DNA from: Zoogloea sp.
Lineage (GTDB): Bacteria > Pseudomonadota > Gammaproteobacteria > Burkholderiales > Rhodocyclaceae
NCBI GenBank assembly: GCA_023150125.1
Contig: JAKLLM010000004.1
Span: forward strand, 1-35,279
DNA: 35,279 nt
Reading direction: 5' to 3'
Part shown: positions 9,303 through 35,279 of the stretch, one piece after another
Position numbering within the stretch: position 1 is the first letter of the stretch
Layout: every line of letters begins with the position of its first letter
Made by a program: the position numbers and the translations under genes
Notes under the pieces: generated by a model
What the model saw: the letters and a program-made list of their open reading frames with translations, nothing else
Databases searched by the model: none
What the model was told of the DNA's origin: nothing

Positions 9303-10481
9303 TCATTCTATCTTAAGTTCGCAAAATTGCACCAGCTTCGAGGCGAGCTCGCCGGCCGCCTCCAGCCGTTCCGCCCAGCGCTCACCGTGCTCCGCCAACG
9401 CAGGCAAGGCGGCCTCGAACGCCGGCCACGCTTCCGCCGCTCCCTGCCCACGGTTCCACGCGTGCCAGAAGTCGGCGAGCGCGCGGCGCGGGCCGCCATC
9501 GAGCCCGGCACCAAAACGCTCCAGAAAAGCGTCCAGCTTCACCATGTGGGCGTCCTCGTCCTGGGGATAGATGTGCCAGACGAAGGGCCTGGCGGCCCAC
9601 TGGGCCCGCACGAAGGAATCCTCCCCTCGCACGAAGTTCAGGTCGCAAGCCCATAGCAACTCGTCGTAGCGGCGCTGTTCGACGAAGGGCAGCACCTGCA
9701 CCGTCAGCGCGCCACGCTGGAACCGGTCGCCCACCGCCAGGCGGCCGGCACCGAGAGCCGGCGCCAGGCTGGCCACCACCCGGCCTTCCGGAACCAGACA
9801 CGTCACCGGGCGCGAGGCGTGGCGCCAGGCCTCGAGCAAACCCGCCAGCCCGGCGTTCTCGTAGGAAAACAGGGATACGCACAGCTCGCCCGGCACAGGT
9901 GGCGGGAGCCCGAGGGCAGAGCGGAACCCATTCACCGGAAACGCGGCACGGCGTGCGGCGTAGCCGGCCTCGCGCAGGACGCCGCCCGTCCGCGGATCGA
10001 AGCCCGGGAAGAAGAAGTGCTCGACGAGCGGCAGCCGGGGGTGGGGCGACGGCAGCGCGTGGCAGTCGGCAACCCAGCCTTCGGCGCTGAGGTACTCAAG
10101 ATTTATCCACACCGGCCTGGGCAAACGACGCGCCATGGCCTCGACGAAGACCTCTGGAAGCCGGCAGGCGAATGCGGCCAGCACCACCTGCCCGGGCTCA
10201 ACTGCCGGGAACGACGCATCCCAGCGCCGCACCTCCACGCCGTCGACCCACTGGGAGGCCTGCCCGGTGTCGAGAGAAGGGATCAGGCGCCCGGCGCTGT
10301 GCAGGTCGTCCACCCACAGACGCACGGAGATCCCGTGCTCCTCCGCCAGTTGCCGCGCAAGACGCCAGCACACGCCGATGTCCCCGAAATTGTCCACAAC
10401 GGAACAGAACAGATCCCAGCACCCCGACTGAGGTGGAACAGGGCACATCGAACGCGAACTCGCCATCAGGATTGGGGACAA
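9303..10481 (-). CDS. earP: EF-P arginine rhamnosyltransferase EarP (true start may be 10448)
   Basis: [37 protein letters not shown].. ; C-term [31 protein letters not shown]; adjacent to efp. Confidence 0.93.
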
Positions 10482-10497
10482 ACACGGGAGAAAAGCC

Positions 10498-10706
10498 TGA
10501 GCAGATTGTGCACAAAGCCCTTCGGCAAGGCGAGGCGGAATTTCATCAACAAAAGCCGCACACGTCCTCCGGTTACTTCTCGACAGCTTTTTGGGTTGTT
10601 CAAACCTTTGATAAAAATGAATTTTTAAGTGTTATCCACAGAAACCCGCGGAGCGTAAACGTAAACTTTATTTATATAAAAAAAAACTAGTAACAACCCC
10701 CTGCAA
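10498..10706 (+). repeat. OriC-like arm A: imperfect direct repeat with DnaA boxes and AT-rich stretch
   Basis: TGAGCAGATTGTGCACAAA ... TTGATAAAAATGAATTTTTAAGTGTTATCCACAGAAA ... TTTATTTATATAAAAAAAAAC; perfect TTATCCACA at 10632-10640. Confidence 0.7.
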
Positions 10707-10756
10707 ACCTTGCCCCTGTTTGCTCACCATCACCTGAAGACCTGGAGGCAACTCAG

Positions 10757-11026
10757 ATGCTCTCGATCACCGACCTGCTCGACTTCATCGATCTGGACAG
10801 GGAAACCGTCCAGGTCGTGAACCGGGCCACCCGACTGCCCGAGGAAGAAGCCATCGCGATCGCTTCGGAGCTCCTGCGTACGCACCGCGGCATCTACCTG
10901 CTTCACGAAATGTTCAAGGATCAGATCGCCGAAGCCGTCTCCGCGTGCGAAGTCGTCCAGGAACGCAGCCTGCGCAAGGCCTATGCCTACTTCGCGCGGA
11001 AGTACCCGATTCCCCACATGCTTTGA
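10757..11026 (+). CDS. Conserved-looking 89-aa hypothetical protein between the two oriC-like arms
   Basis: MLSITDLLDFIDLDRETVQVVNRATRLPEEEAIAIASELLRTHRGIYLLHEMFKDQIAEAV..; good upstream purine stretch (CTGGAGG). Confidence 0.75.
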   Translation: MLSITDLLDFIDLDRETVQVVNRATRLPEEEAIAIASELLRTHRGIYLLHEMFKDQIAEAVSACEVVQERSLRKAYAYFARKYPIPHML

Positions 11027-11267
11027 GCGGACTGTGCACAAAAGGTCGGATTGTTCTGGCACAAAATGTGGACAAGCGGCTCTCTGGCAGGAAACGAAAA
11101 TTTCATCCCCAAATTGTCCCGTGTCTGACGAGGCTTCTGTCCAGAGTGTTTTACAGATTTCAAGATCATGATTTAAAAGATTTTTATTTAGTTATCCACA
11201 GAAAGGTCCGAAGCATAGTTAACGTTGTCTTATATATATAAAGAAAAACAAGAACAACAAACCACAG
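11024..11267 (+). repeat. OriC-like arm B: imperfect direct repeat with DnaA boxes and AT-rich stretch
   Basis: TGAGCGGACTGTGCACAAA ... TGTGGACAA ... ATGATTTAAAAGATTTTTATTTAGTTATCCACAGAAA ... CTTATATATATAAAGAAAAAC; perfect TTATCCACA at 11192-11200. Confidence 0.7.
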
Positions 11268-17531: not shown

Positions 17532-20180
17532 ATGCGCCAGCGCCTCCTGCCCGCCTGCCTTGCCGGACTGTTGCTGCTGGCACCGGCGACATTTGCCTTC
17601 GCCGCGCCGCCGCCGGTGGTGGAGCGCACGCTGGCCACCCGTGCGGCACTGGACGCCTTGTTCTCGATGGAAGCCCTGGCGCCCGAAGGCTCAGCCCCCA
17701 CGCCGCCGCCCGATTTCAGCCCGGACGACGCCGACGAGGCGGCGCTGATCGCCTTCCTGGCCCGCCAGAAGCGCCGCGGTGCCGATCTCGACGCCTATCG
17801 CCAGCTGGGCACGCCGCTGCTCCACACGATCCGGGCCGGCCTGCACGACACCGCCCGCTGGCTGCTCGCCAACGGCGCCGATCCCCGCCTGCGGGTGCGC
17901 GATGCCGCCGAGGCCCCCACGGGTTTCCCGCCCCCCGACGCGCTGGGGGTGGCCGTTGCCGCGGGTGCCTGGAAGCTCGTCGACACCCTCCTGCATCAGC
18001 CCGCCTATGCCACGCTGTCGCCGCGGGACAAGGCCCGCGCGCTGTGGCCCTACGCCCTCGCCTCCGCCCCCCGCACGGCCGGGCTGTTTGGCCGGCGGAT
18101 GGCCCTGCCGTCCTTCGCCAGCGACCCCGAGCTGGCCAGCGCCCTGCTGGAGCATGCCCTGTGCAGCGGGCAGGCCGGGCTGGCCAAGGCCCTCCTTGCC
18201 GGCGACGGGGGCCGGCTGGGGGAGGGCAGTTTCGGCCCGTCCGCGGCGGGCTGCCTGCGGATCGAAGGCCGGGTTTCGCCGGACAAGCTCCCGGCACGCG
18301 AATGGCAGGACATCGAGCAGCGCCTCGGCCGGCCGGTGCTGCCCTGGCTGGTGATCCAGGCCGCCACGCCGGCGCGGGCGGCAGGCCTGTTGGCGTCCGG
18401 GCTGCGCAGCCCCTGGGGTGAGCCGGCGGCCTTGGGCCTCTACGTGCGCCATGCGCTGCGCGCGCCAGCGGGTATCCCGCTGCTGCGGGCAGTGCCGCCC
18501 GACGTGCTTCGATCAGCCTTGGATGACGACGCGATCCTCGCTGAATGGCTGGCCACCAGCGTCGACTGGCCCCAGGCCGATCTCGACTGGGCCCTCGCCC
18601 AGGTGGCGCCTGCGCGGCTCGCCGGGCAACTCGGGCCGCTGCTCGAACGCTGGGGGTATTCCCGCCTCGCCGGGCGCGACGTCAGGGACCGCGCTGCCCG
18701 CCTGGCCCGCTGGACGGCCCTCACCGGCCGCCTCGCCGCGCCGCTGCCGCCGGCGGGCAACGCCCCTTTCCTTTACGTGGTGCCGCCCGAACTCTGGCCG
18801 CGCTGGTTCGCGCTGGGTTACCGCCCGGCCGACCACCAGTGGGCCGACTGGCTGAGCGGGCTGGAGCCGGCCGGCCTGGAGCGGGTCTGGCCGCTGATCG
18901 CCCGGCACCAGCCCGACATTGCCCGGCGGGCGCCGACATGGCTGGTGGCGCCCCTGTCGGTGGGCCCCATCGACGATCCCGAGGCCCGGCGCCTGAGCTA
19001 CCGCGGCCGCTATCACCACGACCCGGATCTGCTCGCCAAGCTGCGCTTCCTGGCCGCCCGCGCGGGCCGGGTCGCGCAGCCCCGCTGGCTGGCCGCCGAG
19101 TTTGCGCTGGAGAAGCCCGCGCCCGGCGTCGCGCTGGCCCTCGCCCAAGGCTGGGTCAAGCCGGCGCCTGCGGCCAAGCGCCGCCAGCTGGAGCCGGCCC
19201 CGCTGGCCTGCATGCCCCGGCCCGGCCCCGGGCTGCGCCGGACGCTGGCGGTGTCAGGGGCGCTGCAGGGCGCAGATGGCGTCGTGGCCTCCATCGACGC
19301 CGTCCAGCCCCTCGCGCGGCCCGGTGCGGCGGCCTGTGAATGGCTGGTGAGCGGCGGTAGCGGTGGCGGGCGGGAGTACATCGACGAGGAGAGTTTCAGC
19401 CAGGGTGTGAACCGGCTGACGCCCTGCCCCGACGCCTGGCGCGTCGCCGCGCTGTGGCGGGAGGGTGGCGGCTGGCGGCCGGTCGAGGGTGAGGTGCCGG
19501 TCGGCCCGCTGCAGCCCATCCGCCTCGCCGGCGCCGGGCTGGCGGGCTTTGCCGCGCTGGAGGTCGATTACGGCACCTGCGGCCAGCGGGCCGCCGAGGT
19601 GTTCATCCCCCAGTTCAAGGCGGACGGCGGCCTGACGTTCAAGCCCGCCGGGCCCGGCGAGGCGCTGTTCGACGCCCTGGCGCTGCAATGCAGCTTCAGG
19701 AACCTGGCGGAGTGCCCGGGGCTGGCCAGCGGGCAGGAAACTCCAGCGGCTGCGCTGGGCGTGGCCGACTTTGCCGATCGCCACTGGGCGGCCGGCAAGG
19801 CGGCCTTCCTCGATGCGCTGGCCCGCTTCGACCGCAATGCGCTGGCCGAGGCTGAAGCCCAGGGGCTGTTTCCCCACTGGCTCGACGAGGCGGCCCGTGG
19901 CCTTGCCGCTGGGCCGGTGCCGAGCCTGCCGGAGCGCCGCCGCCGCATGGCCTGGTTGCAGGCCCGGCGCAACCCGCGCCCGGCGTATTCGGATGAAACC
20001 GTGGCGAGCCTGGTGCCCTGGCTGCCGGCCGAAGACTGGACGCCGCTCGTCGAGGCGCTGCGCTGCAGCCGCCCGTCCACCCTCGACGCGGCGCGTTCCC
20101 GAGCCCGCGAGCTGGGGCGCACCGATCTGGAGAGCCGCCTGCAGCGCGCCCGGGCGCAGGATTGCGAGGCCTCGCCATGA
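17532..20180 (+). CDS. Secreted 882-aa hypothetical protein with possible ankyrin-like N-terminal segment
   Basis: Signal peptide; LLHTIRAGLHDTARWLLANGADPRLRVRDA..LGVAVAAGAWKLVDTLLHQ resembles ankyrin repeats; remainder unrecognised. Confidence 0.65.
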   Translation: MRQRLLPACLAGLLLLAPATFAFAAPPPVVERTLATRAALDALFSMEALAPEGSAPTPPPDFSPDDADEAALIAFLARQKRRGADLDAYRQLGTPLLHTIRAGLHDTARWLLANGADPRLRVRDAAEAPTGFPPPDALGVAVAAGAWKLVDTLLHQPAYATLSPRDKARALWPYALASAPRTAGLFGRRMALPSFASDPELASALLEHALCSGQAGLAKALLAGDGGRLGEGSFGPSAAGCLRIEGRVSPDKLPAREWQDIEQRLGRPVLPWLVIQAATPARAAGLLASGLRSPWGEPAALGLYVRHALRAPAGIPLLRAVPPDVLRSALDDDAILAEWLATSVDWPQADLDWALAQVAPARLAGQLGPLLERWGYSRLAGRDVRDRAARLARWTALTGRLAAPLPPAGNAPFLYVVPPELWPRWFALGYRPADHQWADWLSGLEPAGLERVWPLIARHQPDIARRAPTWLVAPLSVGPIDDPEARRLSYRGRYHHDPDLLAKLRFLAARAGRVAQPRWLAAEFALEKPAPGVALALAQGWVKPAPAAKRRQLEPAPLACMPRPGPGLRRTLAVSGALQGADGVVASIDAVQPLARPGAAACEWLVSGGSGGGREYIDEESFSQGVNRLTPCPDAWRVAALWREGGGWRPVEGEVPVGPLQPIRLAGAGLAGFAALEVDYGTCGQRAAEVFIPQFKADGGLTFKPAGPGEALFDALALQCSFRNLAECPGLASGQETPAAALGVADFADRHWAAGKAAFLDALARFDRNALAEAEAQGLFPHWLDEAARGLAAGPVPSLPERRRRMAWLQARRNPRPAYSDETVASLVPWLPAEDWTPLVEALRCSRPSTLDAARSRARELGRTDLESRLQRARAQDCEASP

Positions 20181-23854: not shown

Positions 23855-23951
23855 TGGCGGAAGAGAATGGGAGTCGAACCCACCAGGGACCGCTTGACGG
23901 CCCCTCCTGGTTTTGAAGACCAGTCGCCCCACCGGGGGACGCATCCCTTCC
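23855..23951 (-). tRNA. selC: tRNA-Sec (anticodon TCA), CCA encoded
   Basis: Minus: GGAAGGGA...ACTGGTCTTCAAAACCAG..GGGGCCGTCAAGCGGTCCC..TGGGTTCGACTCCCA..TCTCTTCCGCCA; 8-bp acceptor stem, long variable arm, TCA anticodon. Confidence 0.95.
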
Positions 23952-24197: not shown

Positions 24198-26132
24198 TCA
24201 ATTCACGGCCAGATCGCCGCGGATCCGGTGTTGTTCGTCGTGGCCGCGGCCGAGCTTGCGAGTGTAGCCGACCCGGTCGAAGTATTCGAGGACCTGGATC
24301 GCCCGTTTGCGACCGAGGCCGGTCCGGTCGCGGAAGGCGGCGGCGCGGATGCAGCCGTCGGCCTCCATCAGCTCGGCGGCGATCGCGCCGAGCTGGCGCA
24401 CTGCGGCGGGGGCGTAGAACAGGTCGCGCACCACCTGGCAGGTTTCGCCGCAGGCGGCGAGGCGCTTGAGGAGTTCGCGGGTGGCGGCTTCGGGCTCACC
24501 GAGGCGCAGCGCGATGTCGCGCACCCACGGCGGGTCGAAGGGCTTGTCGAGGAGCCAGGGCAGCAGGGTGTCGGCGCGCCGGCGGTCGCGGGCGTCGAGC
24601 TCGAGGCGGTGGCCGTGCAGGTGCCAGGCGGCGCCGCTGCGGGCCAGCCGGCCTGCGGCGAGCCAGTGCTCGAGCCATTCGGCGAAGGCCGGCGCGGGCA
24701 GCAGCGGGGCGATCATGCGGCGCAGGCGGTCACGCTCGAGGCCGAGTTCGTCGGGGTGTTCGGCGTGGTGCCTGGCGAGGCGCGCCTCGACACGCTGGCC
24801 GAGGGCGTCGAGGGCAATATTGCCGATCAGCCAGCAGGTTTTGTCGTTGAAGCGGGCGGTGCCGGCCGGCAGCAGCGCGAGGAGGGCGTCGGGCGGGCGG
24901 TTCTCGGCGGCGGCGAGCTGGGCGAGGTCGAGGCCGAGGGGGGAGCAGGCGAGCAAGGCGTCGAGCCGCTCGGCCGGGTCGGCGACGGCGAGGGCGGCGA
25001 GCACGGCGAGCCGGTCGGGGTGGCGGCGGTGCCGCGGCGGGCCGAAGGGGTCGAGGATGCGGCCGCCACCCAGCGTGTTCTGGCCGTGGGCGTCGCGCAG
25101 CACGACGAGGTCGCCGCGGCAGGCGTGCAGCGGTGCGTCGGCGACGATCTGGGCGAGGCCGTGGCTGCCGGGGGCGAGGCCTGTCTTTTCGAGGCTGGCA
25201 TCGAGCAGCGCGACGCGGCCGCCGAGCTGGCGGGTGCCGTGGTGGATCTGCACGACGGCGCCGTGGGCGAGGGCGCGGGGCGCGTCGGCGGCGAGGCTGA
25301 GGGCGATGTCGAGGCGCTGGGCGGGCTGCGGCGCGGCCTGTCCGGTGAGCCAGTCGCCGCGGCGGACGTCATCCACCGCCAGACCGGCGAGGTTGAGGGC
25401 ACAGCGCTGGCCGGCCTGGCCGCTGTCGGCCTTGCGGTTCTGCACATGGAGGCTGCGCACGCGGGCAAGCGAGCCCGTGGGGGCGATGCGCACGCTGTCG
25501 CCCACTGCCACCCGGCCCGCATGGACGGTGCCTGCGACGATGGTGCCGGCGCCGGCGAGGGTGAAGACACGGTCGACGGCGAGGCGGAAGTCGCCCTCCG
25601 CGGCACGGGCCGGCAGGCTGCGGGCGGCGTCGATGAGGTGAGTGCGAAGGGCGTCGACGCCTGCGCCGGTGAGGGCCGACACCGGGAAGACCGGCGCGCC
25701 GGCCAGGCAGCCACCCGCCAGCAGGGCTTCGATTTGCCCGCTCACTTCGGCGAGGCGTTCGGGGCTGGCGCGGTCGGCCTTGGTGAGGGCCACGGCGCCG
25801 CGGGGGATGCCGAGCAGCTGGAGGATCTGCAGGTGTTCGCGGGTTTGCGGCATGGGGCCGTCGTCGGCGGCGACGATGAGCAGCGCGAAGTCGATGCCGC
25901 TGGCCCCGGCGAGCATGGTGGGGACGAATTTCTCGTGGCCGGGCACATCCACGAAGCCGACCACCTGGGCCGGCGAGCCGTCGCTGCCGGGCAGCGGCAG
26001 GTAGGCGTAGCCGAGCTCGATGGTGATGCCGCGGCGTTTTTCTTCGGGCAGACGGTCGGTGTCGGTGCCGGTGAGGGCGTGGACGAGGGTGGTCTTGCCG
26101 TGGTCGATGTGGCCGGCGGTGCCGATCAGCAT
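24198..26132 (-). CDS. selB: Selenocysteine-specific elongation factor SelB
   Basis: [57 protein letters not shown]-term winged-helix region. Confidence 0.97.
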
Positions 26133-27571
26133 GGGCTCAATCCTTCGGTGAGCTGGGCCACGAAGCGTGCCTCGTCGCCGGGCGGCAGGCAGCGCAGGTC
26201 GAGGTGCAGGGCCTTGTCGGCGATGCGCCCGATGACTGGCACTGGCAGGCCGCGCAGCGCGGCTTCGAGCTTGCCGAGCACGCCGCTGCCGCGCCCCACA
26301 GGGCGGAACACCAGCCCGGCCGAGGGCAGGCGGTCGACGGGCAGGCTGCCGGAGCCGATCTGCGACAGCATGGGCTCGATCGTGACGCTGAGCGGCCAGC
26401 CGGCCAGGGCCTGGGCGACGGGGGTGCGCAGGCGTTCGGCCTGGGCCAGCATGGCGTCGCGGGGGCGGGTGAGGAGCTGCAGGGTGGCGAGGCGTTCGGG
26501 CAGGCGGTCGGGGTCGCGGTAGAGGCGCAGCACGGCCTCGAGGGCGGCGAGGGTGATCTTGCCGACCCGCAGGGCGCGCTTGAGGGGGTTCTTCTTGATC
26601 TTGCCGATGAGATCGGCACGGCCGACCAGGATGCCGGCCTGGGGGCCACCGAGCAGCTTGTCGCCGGAGAAGGTGACGAGGTCGGCGCCGTTGGCGATGG
26701 CTTCGGCCGGCGTGGGTTCGTGGGGCAGGCCCCAGCGGGCGAGATCGGTGAGGGTGCCGCTGCCGAGGTCTTCGACGAAGGGCAGGCCGTGGGCGTGGGC
26801 GATGCGGGCGAGTTCGGCCTGGTCGACGCTGGCAGTGAAGCCTTCGATGGCGTAGTTGCTGGTGTGTACCTTCATCAGCAGGCCGGTGCGCGGGCCGATG
26901 GCGGTTTCGAAATCCCGCGCGTGAGTGCGGTTGGTGCAGCCGACCTCGACGAGGCGGGCGCCCGCACGCTGCATGATGTCTGGCACCCGGAAGGCGCCGC
27001 CGATCTCGACCAGCTCGCCCCGCGAGACGATGACTTCCTTGCGCTGGGCGAGGGTGTTGAGGAGCAGAAAGACCGCCGCGGCGTTGTTGTTGACGACGGT
27101 GGCGGCTTCGGCGCCGGTGAGCTCCTGGAGTAGTTCATTGACCACGTCGTCCCGGTCGCCGCGGCCGCCGCTGGCCACGTCGTATTCGAGGGCGCAGGGC
27201 GAGCGGGCGGCTTCGACCATCGCGGCGATGGCTTCTTCGGGCAGCACGGCGCGGCCGAGGTTGGTGTGCAGCACGGTGCCGCTGAGGTTGAAGACGGGTT
27301 TCAGCCGTGGTGCGGCGCGGGCAGCCAGGCGGGCTTCGGCGCTGGCGAGGAGGGTTGCGGTGTCGGGCGCCGGCTGGCCGCTGCCGATCGCCTGGCGGGC
27401 GTCGGCCAGGGTTTCGCGGAGCACGCGGGTGGCCTCGGCGCGCCCGTGGCGGTCGATGAGGGCAGGTGCCGCGCCGAGCAGCCGGTCGAGGCTCGGCAGG
27501 GCGCGGTAGGCGGAGCTTGCGGGGGCCGGCGAACTGCTGTCGGACGTGGTGCCATGGACCATGGACGCCAT
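26126..27571 (-). CDS. selA: L-seryl-tRNA(Sec) selenium transferase SelA
   Basis: [65 protein letters not shown]; overlaps selB start. Confidence 0.97.
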
Positions 27572-27622: not shown

Positions 27623-28552
27623 TTACGGGAGGAACAGGAAGAGGTTGCGGCCGGCGCGGTGGAAGCCAGCCTCGTCGACGAGCATGTCGAGGGAGAGGGT
27701 GGCGAGGTCGTCGGCGAAGGCGTCGACGGCCGGGTCGGTTTCCATCGAGACGATCTTGAGGCTGGCCTGGCAGTCGGGGCAGGTTTCGGCCCTGACGGCG
27801 CGGTGGGCCGGGCCGCTGGCGCCTTCGAGGGCCTGGTAGGCGATGCCGCGGGTGTTCTGGCAGGGCACGCACTTGATGCGCGTGACGTGCCATTCGCAGG
27901 CGCACAGGCTGCAGGTGACGTAGCGCACACCGTGGCCGCCGTCGCCGATGCGCACGATGCTGGCCACCGGCGGTGCGCCGCAGGCCGGGCACTGGCCGCC
28001 TTCGAAGCCGGTGGGGATGTCGGTAGCGGCGAGGCCGAGGGCGGCGGCGGTCCACAACACCTGCAGGCTGGCGCCGATGAGCGGGGCGAGGGCCAGCTCG
28101 ACAGGGTTGGAGAGGTTTTCGTCGCCGCGCAGGATGCTGCGGGTGAGGGCGGCGAGGCGCTCCTCGGGGAAATCGGGAAGGGCCGCGATGGAGTTCTTGA
28201 GGCCGGCCGGGGCGTGGGGCACGACGGCGGTGGCGAGGTCGTGGAGCACGGCAATCCAGTCGGCCGGGAGCTGGGCGCCGTGGGCGTCGAGGGGCGGCAT
28301 GCCGTGCTGGCGGCAGCGGCGGAGGTGGGCTTCATCCGGCGGGGCGGTGGGGCCGCGGCCGTCGAGCAGGGCTTGCTGGGCGTCGGCGAGGCGGGCCGCG
28401 AAGGCGAGGAAGTCGGCCATCGCGTGGCCCTGGGCGAGGCTGCGCAGGCGCTCGGCCCGCCCGGCGAAGACGCGGGGCGAGGGCAGCCGGTTGGGGCTGG
28501 CCTCGCTGCCGGCCTGGGTGGCGATCTCTTCGGGGCTGAGGAGGGTGGGCAT
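27623..28552 (-). CDS. fdhE: Formate dehydrogenase accessory protein FdhE
   Basis: CxxC motifs CPACGAPP, CSLCACEW, CVPCQNT, CPDCQAS; located between fdo and sel genes. Confidence 0.93.
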   Translation of the reverse strand: MPTLLSPEEIATQAGSEASPNRLPSPRVFAGRAERLRSLAQGHAMADFLAFAARLADAQQALLDGRGPTAPPDEAHLRRCRQHGMPPLDAHGAQLPADWIAVLHDLATAVVPHAPAGLKNSIAALPDFPEERLAALTRSILRGDENLSNPVELALAPLIGASLQVLWTAAALGLAATDIPTGFEGGQCPACGAPPVASIVRIGDGGHGVRYVTCSLCACEWHVTRIKCVPCQNTRGIAYQALEGASGPAHRAVRAETCPDCQASLKIVSMETDPAVDAFADDLATLSLDMLVDEAGFHRAGRNLFLFLP

Positions 28553-28629
28553 GTTTGCGGGGTTTCCTGTGGGGCGGTGGCCCGTTGAAAAGGCCCGGAG
28601 GGGCGGGTGCGCCTCCGGGCCCGGGTGGC

Positions 28630-29256
28630 TTACTTGCCGGTCATCTGCTTGTACCAGGCCCGGTGGTGCTGCTTGGCCCAGGCGCGGGTGACGGTGCCGT
28701 AGAGCATCGCCCGGATGGTGCCGCGCACCCAGATGGCGGCATACACGTGGATGATGATCGCGGCGATCATCAGCGCAGCGAACACCGCGTGGAGCAGGGC
28801 GCCCAGGCGGACCACGCCGATCGGGAAGCTGGCGGAGAAGTACGCCCGCCAGATCACGATGCCCGACACGAACAGCACCAGCATGGCCACGCCGAGGAAC
28901 CAGAACAGCAGCTTCTGCCCCCCGTTGTACTTGCCCATCTCCGGCATGTTGTGGTCGTCGCCGTTGACCATCTCCTTGGCCCGTTTCACCCATTCCCAGT
29001 CGGCCTCGCGCATGCGGTTGAGGCCCTGGAAGCGGAAGAACATCACCACGAAGAACAACATCATCGCGACCCCGATGAAGGGGTGCAGGATGCGCGTCCA
29101 GGTGCCGCCGCCGAAGAGCATCGTGAGCGGGAACAGCGCCGGGTGGAACAGGGACAGCCCGGAGAGCGCGAGCAGGATGAAGCAGATGCCCGTGACCCAG
29201 TGGTTGGCCCGCTCCGAGGCGGTGTAGCGTTGCAGATCATGCGGATCGCGGATCAT
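28630..29256 (-). CDS. fdoI: Formate dehydrogenase cytochrome b556 (gamma) subunit
   Basis: [61 protein letters not shown]. Confidence 0.93.
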
Positions 29257-30148
29257 TTTTCGCCCTCCAGTTCACGCTCGACTTCGGCTTCGATCTCCTT
29301 CGACACTTCGTTCGGGCCCTTCATCACGTAGTGGAACAGGCCGCCCAGCGCCGCGGCGGCCATGCCGGCCATCGCGAGGGGTTTGGCGACGCTCTTCCAG
29401 AGGGTGACGGTGGGCGCGATCGTCGGGTCGGCCGGCAGGCCGCTGTACAGCGCGGGCTTGTCGGCGTGGTTGAGCACGTACATGACGTGCGTGCCGCCCA
29501 CGCCGGCCGGGTCGTACAGGCCGGCGTTCTTGAAGCCGCGCTCCTTGAGCTCGGTGACGCGTTCGGCGGCCAGCTCCTGCATGTCGACCTTGGAGCCGAA
29601 GCTGATCGAGCCGGTCGGGCAGACCTTGACGCACGCCGGCTCGAGCCCGACCGCGACGCGGTCGGAGCACAGCGTGCATTTGTAGGCCTTGCTGTCCTTT
29701 TGCGAGATGCGCGGGACGTTGAACGGGCAGCCGCTCACGCAGTAGCCGCAGCCGATGCAGTTTTCCTGGTGGAAATCCACGATCCCGTTGGCGTACTTGA
29801 TGATCGCCCCGGCGCCGGGCAGGCCTTGAGGCAGCCCGGGTCCTCGCAGTGCATGCAGCCGTCCTTGCGGATCAGCCACTCGAGGCCGCGCTCTTCGGTC
29901 TCGACTTCGGCGTAGCGCATGACCGTCCAGCTCTGGTCGGTCATGTCCCGCGGGTTGTCGTAGGTGCCGGCACAGGTGCCGACTTCGTCACGCAGGTCGT
30001 TCCACTGCATGCACGCCACCTGGCAGGCCTTGCAGCCGATGCACTTGGAGACGTCGATGAGTTTGGCGACCTCGAGGGTCTTGCGCGCCTGGGGCGATTC
30101 GGTGGTGGTGGCCGAGCGCTTGGCGATGTCCAGTGATTGCAGTGCCAT
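29253..30148 (-). pseudogene. fdoH: Formate dehydrogenase iron-sulfur (beta) subunit, split by an apparent -1 nt frameshift near 29807-29810
   Basis: [26 protein letters not shown] continues in another frame as [31 protein letters not shown]; ORFs 29735-30148 and 29253-29879 overlap at a G4 run (minus strand). Could be sequencing error. Confidence 0.85.
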
Positions 30149-30158
30149 GGCGATCTCC

Positions 30159-33083
30159 TCAGGCTTTCTCGACGTTGACGAGGAAGGACTTGAACTCCGG
30201 CGTCTGGGTGTTCGCGTCTCCCACGAAGGGCGTCAGGGTGTTGGTGATGAAGCCGTTCTTGGCCACACCCTTGAAGCCCCAGTGGAGCGGAATCCCGACG
30301 TGGTGCACCGTCTTCCCGTCCACCTGCAGCGGCTTGATGCGCTTGGTGACCACCGCCACTGCCTTGATGTAGCCGCGGTTGGAGCTCACCTTGACCTTGT
30401 CGCCGGCCTTGATGCCCTTCTCGGCTGCCAGCGCCTCGCCGATCTCGACGAACTGCTCGGGCTGGGTGATGGCATTCGACTCGACGTGCTTGGTCCAGTA
30501 GTGGAAGTGCTCGGTGAGCCGGTAGGTGGTGGCCGCGTAGGGGAAATCCTTGGCGGTGCCGAAGGCTTCCATGTCGCCCTTGAAGACCCGCGCGGCCGGG
30601 TTGGAGACGGCCTTGGGGTTGTTGGGGTGCATGGGGTTGGTGCCGATCGGCGTCTCGAAGGGCTCGTAGTGCTCGGGGAAGGGGCCTTCGTTCATCATGC
30701 CGCGGGCGAAGAAACGCGCGACGCCCTCGGGGTTCATGATGAAGGGGCCCATGCCGTCTTCGGGGGCGGAATCCGCCTTGAAGTCGGGCACGTCGGAGCC
30801 CAACCACTTGCTCTGGGCGGCGTCCCACCACACCTGCTTGCGCTTGGCGTCCCAGGGTTTGCCGGACGGGTCGGCCGAGGCGCGGTTGTACAGGATGCGC
30901 CGGTTGGCCGGCCAGGCGAAGGCCCAGCCGAGGGTCTGGCCGTTGTGCCAGGGGTCGGCGGTGTCGCGCCGGGCCATCATGTTGCCCTTTTCCGTCCAGG
31001 CGCCGGAGAAGATCCAGCATCCGCAGGCGGTGCTGCCGTCGTCCTTGAGCTGGGCGAAGCCGTCGAGCAGCTCGCCGGCCTTCTTGACGAGCTTGGTCGG
31101 GTCCTTGGCGTCGAACTGGTCGGCCAGGGCCTTGCCGTTGTACTCCTTGGCGAGCTCCTCGGGCGAGGGTTCGTCGGGGCGCTTGTAGGCCCAGGCGAGG
31201 TTGAGGATCGGGTCGGGGAAGGCGCCGCCGTCCTTCTTGTACATCTCCCGCAGGCGCAGGAACAGGCCGGCCATGATCTCCGGGTCGGTCTTGGCCTCGC
31301 CCGGGGGTTCGGCGCCCTTCCAGTGCCACTGCAGCCAGCGGCCGGAGTTGACGATGGCGCCGTCTTCTTCGGCGAAGCAGGTGGTCGGCAGGCGGAACAC
31401 CGTGGTCTGGATCTTGGCCGGGTCCACGTCGTTGAACTCGCCGTGGTTCTGCCAGAACTCGGAGGTCTCGGTGGCCAGCGGGTCCATGATGACGAGGAAC
31501 TTGAGTTTGGACAGCGCCGCGCTCACCTTGGCCTTGTTGGGGAAGGAGTTGAGCGGGTTGAAGCCCTGGGCGAAGTAGCCGGTCATCTTGCCCTGGTGCA
31601 TCAGCTCGAAGACCTGCAGCACGTCGTAGGTTTTATCGAGCTTGGGCAGGTAGTCGAAGGCCCAGTTGTTGTCCTTGGTGGCGGCAGCGCCGTACCAGGC
31701 CTTCATCAGGCTGACGTGGAACTTGCCGTAGTTCTGCCAGTACGACAGCTGCCCCGGCCGCATGGGCTTGGGCGCGCGCTTGGCGATGTAGGCGTCGTAG
31801 TCGGTCTCCTTCTCGCCGGGCAGGGTCATGTAGCCCGGCAGCAGGTTGGACAGCAGCCCGAGGTCGGTGAGGCCCTGGATGTTGGAGTGGCCGCGCAGGG
31901 CGTTCACGCCACCGCCAGCGCGCCCGATGTTGCCGAGCAGCAGCTGCACCATCGCTGCGGTGCGGATGATCTGCGAGCCGGTGCTGTGCTGGGTCCAGCC
32001 GAGGGCGTAGAGGATGGTCATCACCCGGTCGGGGGTGTGCGTGGAGGCGAGCATCTCGGCCACCTGCAGGAACTTGTCCTTGGGCGTGCCGCAGATCTTC
32101 TCGACCATCTCGGGCGTGTAGCGGGCGAAGTGGGCCTTCAGCAGGTTCCAGACGCAGCGCGGGTTTTCGAGGGTCGGGTCGGTCTTGACGTAGACCTTGT
32201 TGCCGGCGATCAGGTAGTTGATCACCCCGCCCAGGAAGGCGATGTCGGTGCCGGTGCGGATGGGCGCGTAGAGGTCGGCCAGCGCGGCCGAGCGCGTGAA
32301 GCGCGGGTCCACGACGACCAGTCGGGCCTTGTTCTTCGCCTTTGCTTCGGTCACCCATTTGAAGCCGCAGGGATGGGCTTCGGCAGCGTTGCCGCCCATG
32401 ATCAGCACCACGTCCGCATTCTTGATGTCGGACCAGTGGTTGGTCATGGCGCCACGGCCATACGTCGGGGCAAGACTTGCCACCGTCGGGCCGTGTCAGA
32501 CACGCGCTTGGTTGTCGAAGGCGAGCATTCCCAGGCTGCGCACCACCTTGTGGGTGATGTAGCCTGCTTCGTTGCTGGAGGCGGAGGCGGCGAGGAAACC
32601 GGTGGTGAGCCAGCGGTTCACCGTCACGCCGTCGGCGTTCTTGGCGATGAAGTTGGCGTCGCGGTCTTCCTTGACCAGCTTGGCGATGCGGGTGAAGGCC
32701 TCGTCCCAGCTGATGCGCTTCCATTCCTTGGAGCCGGGTTCGCGCACTTCCGGGTACTTGAGCCGGTTCTTGCTGTGCACGAAGTCGAGCAGGCCGGCGC
32801 CCTTCGGGCACAGGCTGCCGCGGTTCACCGGGTGGTCCGGGTCACCCTCGATGTGGAAGATCTCGGCGTGGGCGTTCTTGGCCTTGTCACCCAGGCTGTA
32901 CATGATGATGCCGCAACCGACCGAACAATACGGGCAGGTGTTGCGGGTTTCGGTGCTGCGGGCGAGCTTGAAAGTGCGGACTTCGGCCAGCGCGGCGGTG
33001 GGCGAGAAGCCCATCGCGACGAGACTCGATCCGGTCAAGCCCCCGGCGGCCACCTTGAAGAACTGGCGCCGTGAGAGTTGCAT
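30159..33083 (-). CDS. fdoG: Selenocysteine-containing formate dehydrogenase alpha subunit (UGA=Sec at 32496-32498), Tat substrate
   Basis: [53 protein letters not shown] continuous across in-frame TGA; ORF track splits it at the UGA. Confidence 0.95.
32455..32498 (-). promoter_or_regulatory. Bacterial SECIS element immediately downstream of Sec UGA
   Basis: Minus: TGACACGGCCCGACGGTGGCAAGTCTTGCCCCGACGTATGGCCG; apical hairpin GGCAA-GTC-TTGCC (32469-32481). Confidence 0.8.
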
Positions 33084-33133
33084 GTTTCGTCTTCCTCCTC
33101 CGGTTGTTGTGACAAGCGTGCGTTGGTGAACCT

Positions 33134-33149
33134 TGCAAGCCTCGCGCCA
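33134..33149 (-). promoter_or_regulatory. Sigma-54 (RpoN) promoter upstream of fdoG
   Basis: Minus: TGGCGCGAGGCTTGCA versus TGGCACGRNNNTTGCW; GG/GC separated by 10 nt. Confidence 0.75.
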
Positions 33150-33202
33150 GCTTCGCGTGCCTTTCAAAACAGGGATTTAGTGGTGCTCACTGAAAAAAAT
33201 TG

Positions 33203-33235
33203 GGACATTTTGTCCTTGGCTAGGACAGATTGTCT
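33203..33235. promoter_or_regulatory. Two enhancer-like dyads GGACA-N3-TGTCY
   Basis: GGACATTTTGTCC (33203-33215) and GGACAGATTGTCT (33223-33235), centres 20 bp apart, about 85-105 bp upstream of the predicted sigma-54 start. Confidence 0.6.
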
Positions 33236-33370
33236 ATGTGCAGCGCAGCGTAATCCCGGCATGAGAGCCAGTCTTCTTCAAGACTTGCAATGTCCTCGAT
33301 ACCTAGACGTGGGGACAAGCCCCCTGCAATCTTCAGTAGCAGCGTTTATGGCAGATGCTGTTTTTTTTAT

Positions 33371-33397
33371 TAAGAAACGAAAATATCGTGCCGATAA
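33371..33397 (+). promoter_or_regulatory. Sigma-28 (FliA)-like promoter element upstream of crfC homolog
   Basis: TAAGAAAC-N11-GCCGATAA; exact GCCGATAA -10, weak -35. Confidence 0.4.
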
Positions 33398-33547
33398 GCT
33401 AAGCGTCATTGGACGAACACAAGGGCGTGGCTCGCTCCCGGAGCGCATGACCACGACACCTACTACAGCAGCCGGACCGAACAGCAGATGAAATATGCAA
33501 GTCCGCATCTGCTCAGGGAATCAATGAAACCAACCGAGTGAATCGAC

Positions 33548-35279
33548 ATGCACGAGAAAAATATCGACCTGCTCTGCGAAGAAGCCCGACGCTTGCTCAA
33601 AACTGAGATCGACTTCCTGAAAAAAATGCAGGATGAATCAGGTGTCATTGTCCAGGCGCATGAAGGTGAGAGTCAGACCTTTGACCGTGATTCCATTCTC
33701 AAGCACGGTGAGGTGCTTAAGGGTGAGCTGACCAAGCTTGAAGAACTCGAGATGGTACTGGCGGTTGTTGGCACGATGAAGGCCGGCAAGTCCACCACCA
33801 TCAATGCGATTGTCGGAACCGAAGTGCTGCCCAACCGCAATCGTCCGATGACGGCCTTGCCGACGCTTATCCGCCATACTCCCGGCCAGACCGAGCCGGT
33901 ATTGAAATTCGACAACAACACACCCATCAACGATTTGATGAGTACTTTGCACAAGATCGTCCAGAGTTCCAAGGCAAAAGACTACGTTGATGATTTGAAG
34001 CGCAATCCAGACATGGAAGAACTGATTGCGCTGATCGATCGGAAGGCCACTTTCAAGCCGATCTACCAGGGTTCTGAATCCATTTTTTGGTTCCTCAAGA
34101 GCCTGAACGATCTTGTGCGCTTGTGTGGGGATATGCAGGTGGATTTTCCTTTCACTAGCTACGACGAAATCCATGAAATGCCGGTGATCGAGGTGGAGTT
34201 TGTGCACCTGCGCGAAATGAAGGCGACCAACGGACGCCTGACCTTGCTGGATACTCCGGGCCCCAACGAGGCAGGTCAGCAGCATCTGCGCAAGATGCTC
34301 AAGGAGCAATTGACCAAGGCCTCTGCGGTTCTGGCAATTCTCGATTTCACGCAGCTCAAATCGGATGCGGACGCTGAAGTCCGCAGGGAACTCGAAGAAA
34401 TCGCTGGTGTGGCTGAAGGCCGTCTTTTCACGCTGGTTAACAAGTTTGATCAAAAGGACAGGCACGGCGACGACGAGGAGCAAGTCAAGGCCTTCGTGTC
34501 CGAGAAGCTGATGGAGGGGCGGATCGAAAAGAGTCACGTGTTTCCGGTCTCGTCCAAGTGGGGCTACCTTGCGAACCGAGCGAGGAACGAGCTCTTTGTG
34601 AATAAAAAGCTGCCCGACGCAACGGAGCATTCGTGGGTTGTGGATTTTGCCGAAGAAGCTTTTGGTCGTAGGTGGGAAAGCAAGATCGGCGACGCGGAAG
34701 AGGTGAAACATGCGGCCGACGAACTCTGGAAAGACTCCCTCTTTACCGAGCCGATGGAGAAGGTCATCCATGCAGCCCATGCGGGTGCTGCGGCCTATGC
34801 CATCGATTCGGCAGCTGCCAAGCTGATCGATATCGCCAAGCGGGCGGACAATTTCCTCGGGCTGCGTGAGAGTGCCTTGACAAAAAGCGCTCGAGAGCTC
34901 CAAAAGCATATTGCTGAACTACAAAAAGATATGGAGAAAATAGCCGCCAGCGAGAAAGTCACAGTCAATAAAGTGAATGAAATGCTGGCCGGCCTTACGA
35001 AGGGAACGGGTGCGCTGTTTGGTCAGATTGAGAAGAATGCGCTGGAGACGCTTGCCACGTATTTCAAGGAGGGAAAGAGGCAGGAACGCATTCTGGCCGA
35101 AGAGAAGAAGCGGAGCAAAAAGAGCGAGACTGAAGACCATTGGGGCGGCGGCCTGTTTTCCTCCACGCTCAGATCTATCTCCTCGTCCAGCAGGAAGTCC
35201 TCCTCCAGCATCGATGTTGATTTTGACCCCTCTAGCCCGATCATCAAGTTCGATGGGCAGAAGGAGGCCCGAGTCCTGC
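33548..35279 (+). CDS. crfC: CrfC/YjdA dynamin-like GTPase, truncated by window end
   Basis: VVGTMKAGKSTTINAIVGTEVLPNRNRPMTALPTLIRHTPGQ; LTLLDTPGPNEAGQQHL; LVNKFDQKDR; PVSSKWGYLANRARNEL. Missing from ORF track because it has no stop inside the window. Confidence 0.92.
   Translation, partial: MHEKNIDLLCEEARRLLKTEIDFLKKMQDESGVIVQAHEGESQTFDRDSILKHGEVLKGELTKLEELEMVLAVVGTMKAGKSTTINAIVGTEVLPNRNRPMTALPTLIRHTPGQTEPVLKFDNNTPINDLMSTLHKIVQSSKAKDYVDDLKRNPDMEELIALIDRKATFKPIYQGSESIFWFLKSLNDLVRLCGDMQVDFPFTSYDEIHEMPVIEVEFVHLREMKATNGRLTLLDTPGPNEAGQQHLRKMLKEQLTKASAVLAILDFTQLKSDADAEVRRELEEIAGVAEGRLFTLVNKFDQKDRHGDDEEQVKAFVSEKLMEGRIEKSHVFPVSSKWGYLANRARNELFVNKKLPDATEHSWVVDFAEEAFGRRWESKIGDAEEVKHAADELWKDSLFTEPMEKVIHAAHAGAAAYAIDSAAAKLIDIAKRADNFLGLRESALTKSARELQKHIAELQKDMEKIAASEKVTVNKVNEMLAGLTKGTGALFGQIEKNALETLATYFKEGKRQERILAEEKKRSKKSETEDHWGGGLFSSTLRSISSSSRKSSSSIDVDFDPSSPIIKFDGQKEARVL

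Follow-up and report, generated by a model that had tools for sequence, protein, structure and literature searches.

A putative two-module chromosomal replication origin located beside earP and away from dnaA in Zoogloea

Where does chromosome replication begin in a bacterium whose most origin-like locus has no dnaA beside it? The usual site of a bacterial origin adjoins dnaA, and the question was raised by a 35,279-nucleotide stretch of DNA (the window, hereafter) from the wastewater bacterium Zoogloea, contained in an assembly of 3.55 Mb (421 contigs, 82.5% complete). An original prediction, made from the letters of the window, described two oriC-like repeats flanking a small gene and proposed a bipartite, possibly relocated origin, or else a site at which DnaA is titrated. 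Here, we argue that the two repeats (arms) very probably form the chromosomal oriC of Zoogloea, bipartite, displaced from dnaA and composed of two copies of one module. The anatomy of this module, its conservation and the switch in GC skew at the site are read directly from sequence, while the steps of initiation are treated as a proposal.

Two repeat arms and their DnaA boxes

The two repeats with a common layout were found where they had been described, on the plus strand. Arm A (putative oriC module 1, 10498-10697) and arm B (putative oriC module 2, 11024-11260) are both kept across Zoogloea and align locally with a score of 58, against a mean of 18 and a maximum of 30 in 1,000 dinucleotide-shuffled pairs. 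Common to both are TGAGCNGANTGTGCACAAA (10498-10516 and 11024-11042) and AATTTCATC (starting at 10539 and 11099). Between them lies an ORF of 89 amino acids (10757-11026, plus strand), the stop codon of which doubles, as predicted, as the opening triplet of arm B. The left flank is formed by earP (9303-10481) and efp on the minus strand, and earP keeps this left-hand place next to the putative origin in Zoogloea as well as in several further genera of the family; the right flank is formed by an AtaL-type gene (PF08982, 11401-11874), a frequent neighbour on this side, and a gene for a PLP-dependent aminotransferase, both on the plus strand.

By motif search, each arm holds one strong DnaA box, GTTATCCACAG, on the plus strand (10631-10641 in arm A, 11191-11201 in arm B). 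These are the only exact matches in the window, where three sites with at most one mismatch stand against 0.16 expected. The 35 kb contain three copies of the perfect 9-mer TTATCCACA (10103, 10632 and 11192; 0.03 expected), so that two of the three perfect boxes of the window sit in the arms, as the original prediction had them, and the third (10103-10111, plus strand) is situated within earP, also in several relatives. A further box-like site, TTGTCCACA, lies within earP at 10390-10398 (plus strand). The extra, near-perfect box that had been noted in arm B, TGTGGACAA, is present at 11067; read on the minus strand it is an inverted box, TTGTCCACA (11067-11075), and its counterpart in arm A is a palindromic pair of weak boxes, TTGTGCACAA (10506-10515), with a minus-strand box at 10507. 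In both arms, the inverted box precedes the strong box by exactly 125 bp (10507 to 10632; 11067 to 11192). Taken more loosely, eight of the nine TTRTNCACA sites of the 35-kb window fall within 1.1 kb (10103-11200), the expectation for the whole window being 0.55. This clustering, the earP box at 10103 and the 125-bp inverted boxes had gone unremarked in the original prediction. A cluster of boxes well above chance is one of the marks by which a bacterial oriC is recognised, and it is found at the arms.

A/T-rich elements in both arms

A second mark of an oriC, an easily melted A/T-rich element adjoining the strong boxes, is also present in the sequence. The arms had been called the A/T-richest spots of this region. 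In the stability calculation, the four 40-bp stretches that rank lowest in the whole window are all situated in them (10656, 11155, 11215 and 10596). In arm A, these comprise a block upstream of the strong box (10596-10630) and a putative DNA unwinding element (TTTATTTATATAAAAAAAAAAC, 10656-10695), the lowest-ranking 40 bp of all by stability; in arm B, the equivalent block (11155-11190) and putative unwinding element (TTATATATATAAAGAAAAAC, 11215-11255). By sequence stability, a candidate element is hence carried by both arms, not one, and the spacing from the TATATA tract to the strong box is conserved among relatives. The DnaA-trio, defined as at least three NAN trios no more than 16 bp from a DnaA box (PMC8287927), was not found at the published spacing, a point against an origin here; trio-like runs, missing in some arms, start 21-27 bp away from the strong box.

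Conservation of the arms within Zoogloea

A model for the arm core, built from sequence only (91 positions; 22 sequences of 11 species), recovered exactly two copies, beside earP, in 23 of the 24 Zoogloea genomes; the sole exception, G001, is 72% complete. The loss of the arms in relatives, which had been named as an outcome that would count against the prediction, was therefore not seen. In 11 to 12 species the TATATA tract is retained in both arms, as is the strong box, which shows few substitutions.

These data bear on the reading in which the locus is indeed an origin but only one arm works, the other being a decayed or regulatory duplicate. It draws on known bipartite origins, in which the unwinding element is present in one sub-region (PMC4285127, PMC5043019), and on several other genera, in which a single match to the arm model was detected. 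Against it stand the presence of both arms in nearly every genome of the genus and the retention, in both, of box and tract. We regard a single functional arm as unlikely, albeit worth keeping in mind, and favour an origin in which both modules take part.

The small gene between the arms

Close orthologues of the 89-aa protein were recovered by a protein search from 11 further Zoogloea genomes; these have the same arm-ORF-arm layout, with the arms about 560-595 bp apart. Another 11 genomes of the genus have no such gene at this site, and their arms, still beside earP, are about 355-430 bp apart. Considering that about half of Zoogloea have directly adjacent arms, the two-part layout does not depend on the small gene, nor is the gene a core part of the origin. 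On an earP tree its presence needs three changes, such as a single gain with two losses.

The gene itself is real and under purifying selection, as judged from codon comparison (dN/dS ~0.1-0.2; 0.09-0.18 for the closest pairs), and it is preceded by a good ribosome-binding site. Its product is predicted to be a small all-helical protein (mean pLDDT 84.8, with the first ten residues poorly modelled); searches returned no Pfam or NCBIfam match, no convincing PHROGs match, no relative among viral contigs and, with the fairly confident predicted model as query, no PDB fold at E up to 0.001. Relatives in named records are nearly all from Zoogloea, including Z. ramigera NBRC 15342. A more distant relative (~32% identity) is encoded between apparent serS and rarA genes in the two genomes inspected (L021 and L023, near position 1500 in each), where serS and rarA (a replication-associated recombination protein) were recognised by reading the sequence and not by family search; similar matches were obtained from most Zoogloea genomes and several others of the family. 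Position alone suggests a link of the 89-aa protein to replication, and the gene may act locally at the origin, as an accessory or a regulator.

The presence of a plus-strand gene downstream of each arm, the first with its good ribosome-binding site, would also suit a pair of DnaA-regulated promoters serving the 89-aa gene and the AtaL-type gene, respectively. The arms remain where the 89-aa gene is absent, and this reading leaves unexplained both the switch in skew and the inverted orientation that the arms have in other genera; we consider it extremely improbable.

Location of dnaA and GC skew

No dnaA was found in the window, as had been stated, nor in the whole assembly (82.5% complete). 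The gene was recovered from 19 of the 20 relatives checked; hence, while the original observation stands, its absence here most likely reflects an incomplete bin, and a loss of dnaA is rejected. On the Zoogloea contigs that carry both, dnaA lies 38-93 kb from the arms (G006, 38 kb; G017, 40 kb; G011, 65 kb; G019, 73 kb; G015, 85 kb; G021, 86 kb; G020, 93 kb), and the arms thus do not occupy the usual position next to the gene. DnaA-type sites near the Zoogloea dnaA are limited to one within 3 kb, and the densest cluster was located at the arms on all four contigs examined (6-8 sites in 1.3 kb).

Sites resembling parS were observed 7-16 kb from dnaA, and not at the arms, which counts against placing the origin at the latter. 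In G021 (177938 and 178731) they are near dnaA, some 78 kb away from the putative origin, so that partition site and origin would be separated.

Cumulative GC skew was computed on contigs of 245-320 kb, each a part of a chromosome, and in three relatives its minimum fell at arm B (to within ~0.6 kb) and not at dnaA. The minimum is at 100,343 in G021 (strong box at 100,090, dnaA at 185.7 kb), at 104,309 in G020 (strong box at 103,747, dnaA at 196.7 kb) and at 154,146 in G015 (arm B match at 154,631-154,720, dnaA at 69.4 kb). A minimum at dnaA, the outcome that the original prediction had put forward as contrary to an origin here, was not seen. In G021 the stretch from the arms to dnaA has the sign of skew expected for a replichore leaving the arms, and in the window itself the minimum (12,144) is reached ~0.9 kb from arm B. 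G003 and G006 agree less closely, with minima ~7 kb and ~12 kb from the arms; for the window, G006 and the short G008 contig, a single change point in skew is best placed away from the arms. The skew pattern of one contig could, in principle, also result from an old inversion with the arms and dnaA as its endpoints, but this would leave the box clusters, and the recurrence in other genera, unexplained.

Clusters of DnaA boxes remote from dnaA are the typical look of datA and DARS sites, and the arms might accordingly be taken for a titration or reactivation site that happens to be near a true origin next to dnaA. The cluster away from dnaA fits, and an A/T-rich element is by itself no proof of unwinding. 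Such sites are, however, distinct from the start of replication, whereas here GC skew reaches its minimum at the arms and not at dnaA, and the Zoogloea dnaA has no box cluster of its own.

The 125-bp module beyond Zoogloea

The core of each arm can be described as two DnaA boxes in inverted orientation whose starts are 125 bp apart, the second box being strong and followed by an A/T-rich tract. When inverted box pairs 20-400 bp apart were collected from 2.1 Mb of sequence of the family, 28 of 56 had a distance of exactly 125 bp, six of 124 and three of 126, counts that are not independent since some stretches overlap and the genomes are related. In the order as a whole, the inverted 125-bp pattern was detected in 30 of 399 genomes (the backwards control gave one match).

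In several other families the pattern (124-126 bp) is situated within ~1.5 kb of dnaA, in the usual position of an origin (G230, G273, G332, G198, G270, G404, G375 and G465). The Zoogloea module has the inverted-box geometry of these dnaA-adjacent origins and differs from them in lying 38-93 kb off. Displacement recurs in family f27, where the pattern and dnaA share a contig in five genomes at distances of 14-181 kb (G196, G322, G416, G528 and G473). Within the family of Zoogloea, the arm model matches 54 of 151 genomes, the weaker matches being near threshold; some are ~1.2 kb from dnaA (G033, G034, G116, G118, G120, G163 and G166) and others about 7-110 kb from it (G062, G067, G073, G081, G090, G094, G095, G106, G132, G153, G155, G160, G183, G188 and G190). 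Several of the displaced modules in other genera adjoin earP and efp, and those found 50-54 kb (G094) and 110-113 kb (G073) from dnaA are at or near switches in skew (50.5 kb and 121.6 kb, respectively).

These observations return us to the datA- or DARS-like reading. In other families, modules of the same geometry occupy the usual position of an origin next to dnaA, and a titration site need not move along with the skew switch in other genera, as these modules do; we hold such a site to be very improbable. The two-module origin is the preferred reading, in which the bipartite and relocated parts of the original prediction gain from the skew minima, the conservation within the genus and the dnaA-adjacent geometry elsewhere, and the small gene proves dispensable to the layout.

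What lies between the modules varies. Apart from nothing or the 89-aa gene, the spacer is rsuA in G137 and G067, and rdgC, an AtaL-type gene and rsuA in G160 and G132 (rdgC was also seen in G094), where the name rsuA is given from the pseudouridine-synthase and S4 domains and, in G132, from N-terminal resemblance only. More speculatively, and rather doubtfully as it stands, one may picture an origin type common to the family: two DnaA modules of fixed geometry that moved to earP, with interchangeable spacer genes (none, the 89-aa gene, rsuA or rdgC-ataL-rsuA) and with the 89-aa protein as a local regulator of initiation in Zoogloea.

Comparison with known origins and a proposed mechanism

Bipartite origins and origins remote from dnaA are each already known. 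In Bacillus subtilis and Helicobacter pylori (oriC1-dnaA-oriC2) two clusters of DnaA boxes enclose a gene and are accompanied by A/T-rich unwinding DNA (PMC4285127, PMC5043019). Zoogloea likewise has two box clusters and A/T-rich DNA and, in part of the genus, a gene between them. Unlike in these species, the spacer is not dnaA and changes with the genome, and the two parts repeat one and the same module, A/T-rich element included. The oriC of Escherichia coli lies between mnmG and mioC as one uninterrupted origin, at about 42 kb from dnaA. The putative Zoogloea origin resembles it in being apart from dnaA, as is established for E. coli (PMC8287927), and departs from it in having two modules beside earP. 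The combination of duplicate modules with variable spacers other than dnaA was not found in the openly licensed papers searched, although an automatic prediction (e.g., in DoriC) may already exist; nor did these papers, of which the Zoogloea papers were judged by title, yield a matching origin for Zoogloea, Rhodocyclaceae or Azoarcus, or a dnaA-remote origin of this kind.

We envisage that the strong boxes of the two modules would be bound by DnaA, whose gene is tens of kilobases distant, and that the fixed spacing of the inverted boxes would set the geometry. By analogy with other bipartite origins (PMC5043019, PMC4285127), DnaA probably bridges both modules into one complex. The A/T-rich element beyond the strong box would then open, in one or possibly both modules, and two forks would depart from the site.

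Known bipartite origins usually have dnaA as the spacer, and here the two parts endure without it and with other genes between them. Since the spacers differ between related genera, the role of the spacer and the bridging by DnaA become comparable across close relatives. Chromosome records of the family that start at dnaA may not start at the origin, and inverted DnaA boxes 125 bp apart offer a simple signature for locating origins in the order.

Other features of the window

The remainder of the window holds several long ORFs. One of 882 amino acids (17532-20180), without a Pfam match, lies among the GC-richest parts of the window (~76%). The GC content drops to ~52-54% at 33000-35000, as compared with 65-75% elsewhere, and this low-GC part contains an ORF of 423 amino acids (33638-34909), again without a Pfam match. 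A third, of 1036 amino acids (29964-33074, plus strand), gave no Pfam match either and is overlapped by long minus-strand ORFs (30159-32483 and 29941-31329) that possibly encode a formate dehydrogenase with a selenocysteine codon. On the minus strand, a selenocysteine cluster is composed of tRNA-Sec (23855-23951), selB (24198-26132), selA (26126-27571) and fdhE (27623-28993).
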